A DNA stretch of 64,000 bases from Knoellia sp. S7-12 (GTDB lineage Bacteria; Actinomycetota; Actinomycetes; Actinomycetales; Dermatophilaceae). The stretch's first letter is position 1. Each line of letters begins with the position of its first letter. The notes under the pieces are model-generated. The model saw nothing but the letters and a program-made list of their open reading frames with translations, did no database searches and was not told the DNA's origin. The DNA lies in NCBI RefSeq assembly GCF_040518285.1, contig NZ_CP155449.1, forward strand, positions 1,736,001-1,800,000. The letters run 5' to 3'. This document shows, piece by piece, positions 33,250 through 58,684 of the stretch. The position numbers were made by a program, and so were the translations under genes.

Positions 33250-34017
33250 GTGAACAAGTCGATGCAGAGCACTGCCCTCTCGGTCATCGGGGTCATCTCG
33301 GTCGTGGCCGCGATAGGCGGCCTCTATCTCAACTTCGTCAAGCCGGTGATGCGCTGGCCGATCATCGTTGCGGCCCTCGTGCTCATCGCTGTCGCGGTCA
33401 TCGGTCTGATCGGGCACGAGCGGGTCCGTGGCCGCCGCGAGGCCGACCCGGTGGCGCCCTACGAGAGCATGGATTCGGTTCACGACAACGATGGAGAGGT
33501 CCAGGCCCACGACCACGGCCGTGGACCGCGCATCGGCTGGCTCCTGATCGTCCCCTTCCTCCTGCTCGGTGTCGTCACGCCGGGACCGCTCGGGGCGTTC
33601 TCGGCCGAGCGTGACTCGGGTCGGATCGCGACCAATGGTGAGGCGCCCCTGTTCGACCCCATCGATGGTGGCGAGGACGGGGTGGAACTGGCCGTCGGCG
33701 AATACTCCATGCGGGCGCTCTATGACGACCCCAAGAACCTCGAGGGCAAGACGTTCTCGCTCACCGGCTTCGCCTCCACCCTGACCGACGGTGAGGGCTG
33801 GGCGCTGACCCGCATGTCGCTCAACTGCTGCGCCGGAGACGCGCAGGCCATCAAGGTGCGCGTGGTCGGCTCACCGGCTCCGGCCAACAATGAGTGGGTG
33901 ACGCTCACCGGGAAGTGGAAGCAGTCCTCGACGCCGGCTGACGACCCTGCGACCCTGCCCGTGATCGAGGTGGACGACCTCCAGCAGATCGCGGCGCCAG
34001 CCAACCCCTACGAGTAG
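33250..34017 (+). CDS. TIGR03943-family membrane protein
   Basis: 255 residues. Two N-terminal membrane helices and a third near residue 100 are separated by an acidic and His-containing loop (MDSVHDNDGEVQAHDHG); the C-terminal extracytoplasmic OB-like domain has the family hallmark RMSLNCCAGDAQ with adjacent cysteines. It partners the upstream permease. GTG 33250 follows the permease by 52 bp. Its stop is followed within 4 bp by the first of the two duplicated hairpins. Confidence 0.85.
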   Translation: MNKSMQSTALSVIGVISVVAAIGGLYLNFVKPVMRWPIIVAALVLIAVAVIGLIGHERVRGRREADPVAPYESMDSVHDNDGEVQAHDHGRGPRIGWLLIVPFLLLGVVTPGPLGAFSAERDSGRIATNGEAPLFDPIDGGEDGVELAVGEYSMRALYDDPKNLEGKTFSLTGFASTLTDGEGWALTRMSLNCCAGDAQAIKVRVVGSPAPANNEWVTLTGKWKQSSTPADDPATLPVIEVDDLQQIAAPANPYE

Positions 34018-34020
34018 CCA

Positions 34021-34087
34021 GGTTGAAGTCGAGGTAGCGCGACATGCCGCAGTCACTCGAGGTTTGTGGCAAGTCGTGCTACCTCGA
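34021..34087. repeat. Left copy of duplicated hairpin flanking the DUF559-like gene
   Basis: GTCGAGGTAGCGCGACATGCC (34029-34049) faces GGCAAGTCGTGCTACCTCGAC (34067-34087): 21-bp arms with two mismatches. The first 32 bases (34021-34052) match the right copy at 35136-35167 in the same orientation with one difference. It lies between the TIGR03943 stop and the DUF559-like gene stop. Confidence 0.85.
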
Positions 34088-34094
34088 CCCCCGG

Positions 34095-35063
34095 TCAGTG
34101 CGTCAGATCAAGGTCGGACTCGGGCACACCGAGCGCCCGCGCAAGTCGACGCAGCATCGCGATGCGCTTCGGTCGGGTGTAAACGTCCCCCGCAAAGATC
34201 TCCACGAAGGTCCAGTCCTCGTCCTCGGCGAGATGTCGGCGCGCAACATCGACAGCTCGCTGCCCGATGACGCGGTGGTGCTTGCCCTGGTACTCGCCGA
34301 TGACCCGTTGGTCGCGCCACACGAAGTCGCCCTCCAGCATCCAGCCCGCGCTGCTGCCGTCAGCAAGCTCGAACTCCACGGCCACGTTCAGTTCGGGTGT
34401 CGGCAAGCCGCCGCGGTGGAACATCAGCCGAGCGCGCGTCTCCATCGGTGACTTCGCCCGTGGCGAGACCAAGGCGAGCGCTTGATCCAGCATGACCTTG
34501 CCTCTCGGTCTGACACGCGCGTCGAGAGTTGTCCGGATCAACTGGACGCCGTCCCCGGCTCCCTTGGCCTTATCCAGGAGTCGAGCCGTGACATCACCGG
34601 CAACGACGAGGTCGTCAAGCCCGAGGCCCCGGTCGAGGACTTCGCCCAAGTCGACGCCCAAGTCGACCCAGGTGTCAGCGAGACTCGTCACCGCGACGCT
34701 CGAGGGATGCTGGACCACGCGCCGACGCTCCAGCCCTCGGTGCCCGATGCACCCGTCTCGCCTGACGGGACCCGAGCGGCGACCGCACATCACGTTGAGG
34801 TCCGACTGCCGCTCCAGGGCTGCCGGGAGCGGGATGCCCCACACCATGGCCGCGCTGATGTGGGACAAGGCCACCGGGGCGCGCAACGCCACCAGGTAGG
34901 CCAGGGCCCTTTCGGTGAGGCTGGTCGGCTCGCTCTTCACCCGCGAGCCGCGGGTCAGGACGTGGAGCTCCTTGTTGCGGAGGTCTCGCGCAGAAACGCC
35001 GAGCGTGCGGGCCTCCGTCGTGGAGAAGGGGCGCGCCGCGAGGTCGTCCGGGAGTCGCTGCAT
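34095..35063 (-). CDS. DUF559-like putative endonuclease with AbiEi-type N-terminal HTH
   Basis: 322 residues. The N-terminus (about 12-45: FSTTEARTLGVSARDLRNKE) resembles the winged helix of AbiEi-type antitoxin-domain proteins. The C-terminus (about 215-310) looks like the DUF559/Vsr-like PD-(D/E)xK fold: acidic residue in EGDFVWRDQ, then GEYQGKHHR as the E-x-Q/K core, then DEDWTFVEIF. Start ATG 35063 is chosen because longer frames read through the hairpin. The gene is bracketed by two copies of the same long hairpin and interrupts a zinc-homeostasis locus. Function unknown; I infer a nuclease associated with its own palindromes. Confidence 0.7.
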   Translation of the reverse strand: MQRLPDDLAARPFSTTEARTLGVSARDLRNKELHVLTRGSRVKSEPTSLTERALAYLVALRAPVALSHISAAMVWGIPLPAALERQSDLNVMCGRRSGPVRRDGCIGHRGLERRRVVQHPSSVAVTSLADTWVDLGVDLGEVLDRGLGLDDLVVAGDVTARLLDKAKGAGDGVQLIRTTLDARVRPRGKVMLDQALALVSPRAKSPMETRARLMFHRGGLPTPELNVAVEFELADGSSAGWMLEGDFVWRDQRVIGEYQGKHHRVIGQRAVDVARRHLAEDEDWTFVEIFAGDVYTRPKRIAMLRRLARALGVPESDLDLTH

Positions 35064-35135
35064 GGATCGGAAGCATCCCCGAACAGCTACAACCGAGCGC
35101 AGAGTTATCCACAGTTGCAAGACCCAGGTGCCGCA

Positions 35136-35209
35136 GGTTGACGTCGAGGTAGCGCGACATGCCGCAGGCAGTTCCCTGCGCACGGCATGTCGTGCTACCT
35201 CGACGTCAA
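35136..35209. repeat. Right copy of duplicated hairpin flanking the DUF559-like gene
   Basis: TTGACGTCGAGGTAGCGCGA... (27-nt arm from 35138) faces its reverse complement ending at 35209 with a single mismatch, loop 18 nt. The direct match with the left copy (34021-34052) covers 32 bases. The arms are nearly perfect here and more degraded in the left copy. It ends 14 bases before the zur stop codon, so it may also act as the zur terminator. Confidence 0.85.
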
Positions 35210-35223
35210 ACGCCGCCGAACCC

Positions 35224-35673
35224 TCAGTGCGACGTGCAGGTCCCGAAGAGTTCGATGGTGTGGGTGACGTCGGTGAAGCCGTTGCGGCTCGCAACCTCGG
35301 TGGCCCACTTCTCGACCGCCGGGCCCTCGACCTCGACCGTGCGACCGCACTCTCGACACACCAGGTGGTGGTGGTGGGCGTCGGTCGCGCAGGAGCGATA
35401 GACGCACTCGCCGTCATCGGTCCTGACCACGTCGACGTCACCGTCGGCCGCCATGGCCTGGAGGTTGCGATAGACCGTGGCCAGACCGACCGAGTCCCCG
35501 CGCGACTGCAACTTGGAGTGCAGTTCCTGCGCTGAGACGAACTCCGGCGTCGCCGCCATGAGCTCGGCGAGGGCAGCGCGCTGGCGGGTGGGCCGGCGAG
35601 AGGTGCCGGCGGTGCTGGCGGTGCTGGCGGTGCCGACGCCCGCTGTGCCGGGCTCGGTGGAAGAAGTGGTCAT
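35224..35673 (-). CDS. zur: Fur-family regulator, probably Zur
   Basis: 149 residues. Winged helix (TRQRAALAELMAATPEFVSA, then GLATVYRNLQAM) followed by the metal-binding dimer domain with the histidine cluster DAHHHHLVCRECG and a C-terminal CxxH end (GTCTSH). Only one CxxC is present, with the second structural cysteine near the end. Its ATG overlaps the znuB stop region, placing it last in znuA-znuC-znuB-zur, and the perfect palindrome at the znuA promoter supports Zur over Fur. The N-terminal Ser/Thr/Gly-rich tail (about 25 residues) is an extension. Confidence 0.88.
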   Translation of the reverse strand: MTTSSTEPGTAGVGTASTASTAGTSRRPTRQRAALAELMAATPEFVSAQELHSKLQSRGDSVGLATVYRNLQAMAADGDVDVVRTDDGECVYRSCATDAHHHHLVCRECGRTVEVEGPAVEKWATEVASRNGFTDVTHTIELFGTCTSH

Positions 35674-57342: not shown

Positions 57343-58684
57343 TGTATGACTCCGCCTGATGCTTGACGTTTGGGCTTCACCTGATGCCTGACAGTGTTCC
57401 GGTTGATGGTTGACAGCTACTTCGGCTGATCCTTGACACTCCCTCAATGAGGGAGATGAGTGTGGCTGAGCAGCGATACAAGGCGGTTCTGGCAGTCATC
57501 AGTGACGGCCGGACCATCACGGAAGTCGCGTCCGCGTGGTCGGTGTCGCGACAAACCCTGCACGAGTGGCTGGCCCGGTACGAGCAGGGCGGCTTGGAGG
57601 CGTTGGCGGATCGATCGCACCGTCCGGACGCGTGTCCGCACCAGATGCGCCCCGACGTTGAGGTCGCGGTCCTGGAGATGCGTCGGGTCCACCCCGGTTG
57701 GGGCCCACGCCGGATCGTGTTCGAACTGGCCAAGAAGAGCACCACCACGTCAGAGTCCGGGGTGTACCGGGCGTTGCGACGCGCGAACCTGATCGACCCC
57801 ACCGCTCGGCGGCGTCGCCGCGAAAACTGGAAACGGTGGGAACGCGGCCGACCGATGGAGTTGTGGCAGATGGACGTCGTCGGTGGGATCGGCCTGCGTG
57901 ACGGGACCACCCTGAAATGCCTGACCGGTGTCGATGACCACTCCCGGTTCTGCGTGTGCGCAGTACTGCTGGTCAAGGAACGCACCCAGCTGGTCTGTGA
58001 CGGCCTCACCGCCGCGTTGCGCACCCACGGCGTGCCCGAACAGATCCTCACCGACAACGGCAAGGTGTTCACCGGCCGGTTCAACCACCCGCCCACCGAG
58101 GTCCTGTTCGACCGGATCTGCCGGGAAAACGGCATCGAGCACCTCCTGACCAAACCCCGCTCACCCACCACCACCGGCAAGATCGAACGGTTCCACCGCA
58201 CCCTGCGCGCCGAGCTCCTCACCGGAACCCTGTTCGCCTCACAGCAGGCTGCGCAGCAAGCCCTCGACGAATGGGTCACCACCTACAACCAGGACCGGCC
58301 CCACCAATCCCTGGACATGGCCACCCCAGCAGAGAAATTCGCCGTGGCCACACCCCGAACCTTGCGCGAGCAACCTGACCGCGACGGACCCGAATGGGTC
58401 GCCCGCAAGGTCTCCACCGTCGGTGTCGTGTGCGTGTCCTGGCAGCAGGTATCCGTCGGACGTCACCGCGCCGGAGAACGCTGCGACGTCCACGTCGGCC
58501 CAGAAACCCTCCAGTTCTGGATCGGCAATGAGCTGCTGCGCACCGTCCGCCGTGAAAGCACCGGCCCCGTCCGCAACAAACGACCCCTGGGAGGTGCACT
58601 CACCAAGCACCGCACGACAAACTGAACGTTAGGAGTGTCAAGGATCAACCGGCGTAACACCGTCAACCATCAACCGAAGGCCCA
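57343..58684 (+). mobile_element. IS481-family insertion sequence
   Basis: About 1.34 kb between the two direct repeats, holding one DDE transposase gene. Near the ends are inverted repeats of about 45 bp: CGGTTGATGGTTGAC at 57400 and its complement ending at 58676, both continuing into GATCCTTGACACTCC. The left end has two further tandem copies of the motif YTGATGCYTGAC (near 57353 and 57378), so it is longer than the right. The insertion separates the tRNA from the stem-loop at 58704-58748. Confidence 0.85.
57447..58625 (+). CDS. IS481-family transposase
   Basis: 392 residues. N-terminal helix-turn-helix (ITEVASAWSVSRQTLHEWLA), rve-type integrase core with catalytic Asp in LWQMDVVGG, Asp in ILTDNGKVFTG and Glu in TGKIERFHRTL; a C-terminal domain of about 100 residues ends the protein. 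The full DDE triad is intact and no frameshift is seen, so the copy may be active. GAGGGAGATG at the start gives a Shine-Dalgarno sequence overlapping the first ATGs; ATG 57447 or 57456 could be used. Confidence 0.93.
   Translation: MREMSVAEQRYKAVLAVISDGRTITEVASAWSVSRQTLHEWLARYEQGGLEALADRSHRPDACPHQMRPDVEVAVLEMRRVHPGWGPRRIVFELAKKSTTTSESGVYRALRRANLIDPTARRRRRENWKRWERGRPMELWQMDVVGGIGLRDGTTLKCLTGVDDHSRFCVCAVLLVKERTQLVCDGLTAALRTHGVPEQILTDNGKVFTGRFNHPPTEVLFDRICRENGIEHLLTKPRSPTTTGKIERFHRTLRAELLTGTLFASQQAAQQALDEWVTTYNQDRPHQSLDMATPAEKFAVATPRTLREQPDRDGPEWVARKVSTVGVVCVSWQQVSVGRHRAGERCDVHVGPETLQFWIGNELLRTVRRESTGPVRNKRPLGGALTKHRTTN

Follow-up and report, generated by a model that had tools for sequence, protein, structure and literature searches.

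A gene for a predicted AbiEi-Vsr nuclease in Knoellia sp. S7-12 lies between two copies of a palindrome of about 60 bp, and the same association of gene and palindrome is found in related genomes. The arrangement is probably that of a selfish or mobile element, in which the nuclease gene stands between two copies of its own site of about 60 bp and solo copies of the site lie elsewhere. The evidence is best read as a selfish system of the REP kind, with a non-HUH nuclease as the driving enzyme and the 60-bp palindrome as the site that it recognizes; recognition, cleavage, and movement are steps that we infer from the sequences. The balance is even on a wider proposal, namely that AbiEi-Vsr nucleases drive a class-wide and undescribed group of selfish palindromes in the Actinomycetes, each nuclease co-evolving with its own ~60-bp palindrome and copying palindrome and cassette into slots at gene 3' ends, a RAYT-like role without a HUH enzyme. 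The window, that is, the whole stretch of 64,000 nucleotides that was analyzed, contains the features listed in Table 1.

Table 1. Features of the nuclease element and its neighbors, in window coordinates.
Feature	Position	Strand	Basis or detail
Gene of AbiEi-Vsr (DUF559/MTES_1575-like) protein, 322 aa	34095..35063	-	ORF list
Palindrome downstream of gene	34028..34088	.	TCGA-to-TCGA core 34029-34087 (59 bp)
Palindrome upstream of gene	35138..35209	.	TCGA-to-TCGA core 35144-35203 (60 bp)
Residues 1-200, predicted AbiEi-like DNA-binding module	34464..35063	-	
Residues 205-313, predicted Vsr/EDxHD-type nuclease domain	34125..34451	-	
Flanking TIGR03943-family gene, 3' end toward element	33250..34017	+	123.5 bits, cut-off 88.8
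Flanking Fur-family (PF01475) regulator gene, 3' end toward element	35224..35673	-	profile match

An earlier note on this DNA had described two long hairpins that share a direct match and bracket a single reverse-strand gene, and all of these elements are present. The arms of the downstream stem-loop are 24 nt each (34028-34051/34065-34088) and those of the upstream stem-loop 34 nt each (35138-35171/35176-35209), both pairs being 88% complementary, and the direct repeat common to the two is 37 nt long with 95% identity (34019-34055 versus 35134-35170). A single ORF is found between the palindromes at the window as well as at loci L012 and L013, and an adjacent AbiEii nucleotidyltransferase toxin gene is absent. 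In the 4.16-Mb genome, the window arm GTCGAGGTAGCGCGACATGCC occurs four times with at most two mismatches, and all four copies are the element's own arms. At three mismatches there are six further matches, one of which (L009) is a variant palindrome and five of which have no palindrome. The unit had also been placed between a TIGR03943 gene and zur. The first assignment stands, and the second gene could be assigned at the level of the Fur family. The TIGR03943 gene was found in one of the nine Knoellia genomes searched, the window genome, so no empty counterpart of this locus could be seen in the other eight. At L094, in another genome and with unrelated arms, the upstream neighbor resembles the Fur-family side upstream of the window element (54% over 132 aa).

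Besides one split copy, the Knoellia genome carries two further intact paralogues of the gene, which are 69% and 48% identical to it. As the earlier note had predicted, both intact paralogues are bracketed by paired palindromes with arms of their own, GTCGAGGTAGTAGGAAACGCCG and GTCGAGAGGAGAGAACCCGCCG, and all three genes lie between convergent genes. A search for palindromes around the split copy found none. The two paralogues occupy unrelated slots, so the zinc context of the window element looks incidental.

The predicted structure of the 322-aa protein (pLDDT 95) combines an AbiEi DNA-binding module with a Vsr/EDxHD-type nuclease domain. Residues 1-200 match an AbiEi antitoxin, and the best structural match of the nuclease domain is the EDxHD homing endonuclease I-Bth0305I. 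The earlier note had read an AbiEi-like winged helix and a Vsr/DUF559-like nuclease from the letters and had proposed a fold prediction of the nuclease part; that prediction bears out both halves, the nuclease being of the Vsr type and resembling I-Bth0305I. With Foldseek alone, the best match is an AbiEi homologue at E 5e-3, with none at E<=0.001. In an alignment of 57 family sequences, E208 is invariant and D246, E257, and D272 are nearly so. The Pfam DUF559 model (PF04480) leaves the window protein unmatched and matches 22 of these 57 sequences at E<=0.01, and PF18741 matches 10. No transposase family model matched among the proteins scanned, and no DDE or HUH transposase stands among the matches listed in the structure comparison, which does not by itself prove their absence.

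The nuclease family was matched in the genomes of 48 of 58 relatives. Of 98 genomes sampled from the class, 88 have it, many with several members. For the relatives, 30 loci, 40 further places, 22 named loci, and the window genome's own gave 97 ORF matches, or 74 distinct ORFs after removal of duplicates. The 67 that scored and covered the profile well enough and had 100 bases or more on each side entered a flank test, in which the similarity of upstream and downstream flanks was compared with the 99th percentile of mismatched flank pairs (22.0). This threshold was exceeded by 53 of the 67 elements and by none of 62 displaced flank pairs. When the elements were grouped into 44 site clusters by shared flanking genes, 38 clusters had a positive member and 37 were positive by the median. 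Applied to other genes, the same test was positive in 3 of 255 cases. Two of these are genes in element-holding loci (L104, L111) that probably score because of the palindrome of the element, and the third, the gene of an IS481-type transposase in the window, is an unplanned positive control of the test. This transposase gene (57447-58625, + strand; rve, LZ_Tnp_IS481) has matching flank repeats. Hairpins scoring at least 12 were found in 15 of 254 displaced stretches, compared with 40 of 67 stretches upstream and 48 of 67 downstream of family genes. Because the window arm is confined to the element's four arms, hairpins are rare in displaced stretches, and both paralogues are arranged alike, the palindrome-gene-palindrome layout at the window is not due to chance. 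More generally, nothing was found in favor of chance or an assembly artefact, and recurrence of the layout across numerous genomes and site clusters in controlled tests rules it out.

Fourteen of the 67 elements fail the flank test. At L100 (G000:C1:3073873-3074717) there is a split relative of the nuclease gene without palindromes. Its relatives at the same site, L140 and L142, fail the test, and palindromes may thus be lacking in one lineage of the family. Of 29 loci in the class set, 27 were testable and 17 positive at the set's own threshold of 18.5; five of the 27 belong to the same order as the window genome (two of them, L229 and L230, duplicate loci of the 67-element set), so 22 were counted as outside the order. 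Among these 22, 13 are positive and nine fail at 18.5, and 11 are positive at 22.0. Their outer boxes differ (e.g., TGATCATG) and their arm sequences are unrelated, but the layout is the same. Direct and inverted scores of the flanking repeats are often close, the repeats being palindromic, and both kinds occur. Some lineages carry, instead of hairpins, single arms repeated in convergent arrays on both sides of the gene, an arrangement that points to the single arm as the unit of recognition. Such tandem arrays converge from the two sides of the gene at L089, L091, and L134 and are confined to one side at L136. Phage sequences gave no match to the family and a plasmid search gave two distant ones, so there is no sign in these sequences that phages or plasmids are vehicles of its spread.

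The geometry of the palindromes is nearly constant. Of 53 TCGA palindromes, 52 span 58-61 bp, with 40-90 bp allowed in the search; a plain terminator hairpin would not need such constancy. The outer box in the window clade is (G)TCGAG, and GTAG occurs only within some arms. Two published sites fit the length of the palindrome. The target on which I-Bth0305I dimerizes measures nearly 60 bp (PMC3943268), and the AbiEi homologue Rv2827c binds inverted repeats of 23 bp in pairs with 13 bp between them (PMC7319586), for a sum of 59 bp.

The two palindromes of one element resemble each other much more in their arms than in their loops. Across 27 elements, a set that includes one near-duplicate pair (L081, L088) and palindromes from two pieces of a split gene (L131), arms agree at 0.909 and loops at 0.576 within an element, compared with 0.50 and 0.34 between different elements. 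Loops are identical in 2 of the 27 elements; since they otherwise differ, recent duplication does not explain most cases. At site C, the arms agree at 0.91 inside an element and at 0.57 between orthologues of different species; the two palindromes of a pair thus change in concert and stay matched. The orthologous arms at sites A and B have barely diverged (0.94 and 0.93). Protein similarity and arm similarity are correlated across 39 elements (rho 0.60, equaled in 0 of 2000 permutations), and common ancestry may contribute to this correlation, as well as to part of the agreement between solo palindromes and resident elements described below. At L102, L110, and L125, a small second palindrome, ATGCCG..CGGCAT, often lies within the loop.

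The stems also covary. In one subfamily of 15 sequences there are 24 two-sided changes, compared with 6.2 in shuffled alignments (0 of 500 as high) and at most 5 in slid controls of the same subfamily. Because the two-sided changes exceed both controls, pairing of the arms is maintained despite changes of letters, a hint of a folded form. Template switching that corrects quasi-palindromes could produce the same pattern. The strong, covarying stems would also suit a function in RNA, with one hairpin at each end of the transcript, where the protein would bind or cut it for stability or control. However, mismatches on the sense strand of the gene show no excess of G.U pairs (G.U 16 versus A.C 22, with 47 other mismatches), some lineages carry the convergent single-arm arrays in place of hairpins, and Rfam matches are all below threshold and mostly to microRNA precursors. 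A function in RNA is therefore very unlikely.

Palindromes of the same span also occur without a family gene. Such solo palindromes occur in the six Knoellia genomes for which places were listed (G000-G003, G007, G008), with at least eight in the window genome, and occur in the glmM slot of G004 and G006 as well. The reversed-pattern control of this search was too lenient, because GTCGAG and CTCGAC are common in coding DNA, and the palindromic matches were chosen by eye, as were the 37 regions taken as solo loci, which include the L009 variant. The family profile found no family gene at any of 39 solo loci within about 2 kb on either side. For 38 of the 39, L192 having failed the strict finder, placement was read from gene orientations given by a simple GC-frame gene caller: the neighboring genes are convergent in 20 cases, tandem in 15, and divergent in 2, and 1 case is unclear. 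Solo arms match the elements of their own genome at a mean of 14.06 of 16 positions, compared with 11.39 for permuted genome labels, and among 840 labelings the only one as good as the true one is the true labeling itself; not in this set are five solo palindromes from G002 and G008, genomes that lack a resident element of the window clade. For only 24 of 34 solo palindromes does the own genome equal or surpass the best match in any other genome, because sister species share subfamilies, and the match to the resident is weak (at most 12 of 16) in four of 12 solo palindromes in K. flava and three of 8 in the window genome. The earlier note had held that hairpins scattered through the genome with no link to these genes would speak against its proposal; instead, the solo subfamilies track the resident nucleases, with these exceptions.

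The placement of solo and flanking palindromes also bears on the possibility of a resident protein that acts as a regulator or as a toxin-like nuclease. The palindromes would then be operators and insulators serving self-repression, matching arms would reflect one specificity, and solo palindromes would be sites of its regulon. Such a role would agree with the predicted AbiEi fold, with the position of the upstream palindrome, mostly ~55-130 bp before the matched gene start, and with published work in which AbiEi and Rv2827c bind inverted repeats of their own promoters (PMC7319586). However, autoregulation needs no downstream copy, the solo palindromes lie mostly at gene 3' ends, and in related species the same slot may be empty or hold other families. 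For these reasons, this alternative is considered unlikely.

Comparison of slots between species shows how differently they are filled. Among nine Knoellia species, the glmM slot holds window-clade palindromes of two subfamilies in four and a second palindrome family in three, and no palindrome is visible in two, as judged by eye. The pntB slot contains a window-type element in three species (G000, G006, G007). In five others (G002, G003, G004, G005, G008; loci L163, L165, L166, L168, and L169) it is occupied by a gene from a second AbiEi-nuclease family, almost unrelated to the first and bounded by inverted end repeats, and in the ninth genome the contig ends there. The end repeats of this second family align over 67-122 bp with scores of 33-86.5. 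Its protein in G003 matches AbiEi_4 at 40.6 bits (cut-off 25) and MTES_1575 weakly. The family profile finds the second-family protein at 53-75 bits, and its BLASTP alignment with the window protein is confined to the winged helix. In G003, G005, and G008, palindromes resembling the second-family ends stand by themselves in the glmM slot.

The acyl-CoA dehydrogenase slot holds an element in four species. In two of them the gene is broken and both palindromes are intact, and in one the gene is intact and only the downstream palindrome is present. In K. sinensis, the slot contains a solo palindrome of the subfamily of that species' own element elsewhere. Genes in pieces between two intact palindromes are seen at L110 and L131. 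Behind the SRPBCC gene at L151 (G001) there is an array of a different palindromic repeat (CGTCCGCAAC type), and this slot holds a nuclease element in other Knoellia species. Since the glmM, pntB, and acyl-CoA dehydrogenase slots are filled differently between species, palindromes and cassettes evidently come and go in the same slots. No insertion boundary or target duplication could be read, because beyond the palindrome the sequences of empty and filled slots are too divergent, and no movement event or cut site was resolved in the slots compared. Several elements are old residents common to different species at one site, so movement would be slow.

These slots are equally relevant to the idea that nuclease genes merely insert or hitchhike at the palindromes, which would themselves be ordinary terminators acting in both directions or REP-like repeats that other machinery has spread. 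Their position at convergent gene ends is what would be expected of terminators, and compensatory change preserves the stem. On the other hand, the palindrome subfamily tends to track the resident nuclease, the span is constant, the glmM slot is empty in two species, and the layout recurs across the class with unrelated arm sequences. As for other machinery, Y1_Tnp (PF01797) was found in none of the nine Knoellia genomes, compared with 5 of 14 control genomes. Taken together, these observations make it distinctly unlikely that the genes are passengers at repeats of other origin.

The REP-like selfish system remains the preferred reading, and a possible mechanism can be outlined for it. Two protomers would bind the two inverted arms of ~22 bp through the AbiEi module, and the bound dimer would set its two nuclease domains over the ~15-bp center. 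A nick or break at the center, made in duplex DNA or in an extruded or single-stranded hairpin, could then start copying, by which the palindrome or the whole cassette would reach new slots, often at the 3' ends of convergent genes. A solo palindrome could remain where the two copies had recombined or excision had taken place. The sites on the two flanks of the gene are intact, and a nuclease that freely cut duplex sites would excise its own gene; action limited to nicked, extruded, or single-stranded palindromes would spare the element's own two sites.

The link between nuclease and palindrome provides a testable substrate for widespread proteins without a known function. In the open-licence literature searched, no function was found for the family genes, and titles and abstract openings contained no link of the family to palindromes. 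The link may also account for how REP-like repeats arose in bacteria in which no RAYT was found, and the co-varying pairs of protein and site are natural material for studying the evolution of DNA specificity.

Among known systems, the REPtron is the obvious comparison; its published description reports a RAYT gene between two REPs, related REPs scattered through the genome, and stems with compensatory change (PMC2817692). The Knoellia element shares with REP/RAYT systems the single nuclease or transposase gene between two palindromes, the dispersal of related palindromes with compensatory stem changes in the same genome, and the presence of several subfamilies per genome, several of them with their own gene. 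The enzymes differ, however, an AbiEi module with a predicted Vsr-type nuclease taking the place of the Y1 HUH transposase. The GTAG/CGTC end tag of REPs is likewise absent, the palindrome being one of ~60 bp with outer TCGA, or with other boxes elsewhere, and the copy number is low (at least eight solo copies) rather than the hundreds of most REPs. I-Bth0305I, which is free-standing and has the Vsr fold, resembles the window protein in its nuclease fold and free-standing gene, and its published dimer target has nearly the length of the palindrome. In contrast, the window protein has an AbiEi-like DNA-binding part, and if the palindrome is its target, two whole sites lie at the ends of the element and none is interrupted. 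With the AbiEi antitoxins of type IV AbiE systems and Rv2827c, the element shares the fold of residues 1-200 and paired inverted repeats upstream, but it differs from them in having no toxin gene alongside, a nuclease fusion, and a second palindrome downstream. The second AbiEi-nuclease family at pntB, with its long inverted end repeats in five species, resembles TIRtrons and IS elements with terminal inverted repeats; in this case, however, no transposase family was matched, and the end repeats themselves contain palindromes. Overall, the element is neither a RAYT system, since it has another enzyme and no tag, nor a classical homing gene, since its sites are uninterrupted, nor a toxin-antitoxin pair, since there is no partner gene; it is an arrangement in which a nuclease gene is framed by its own palindromes.
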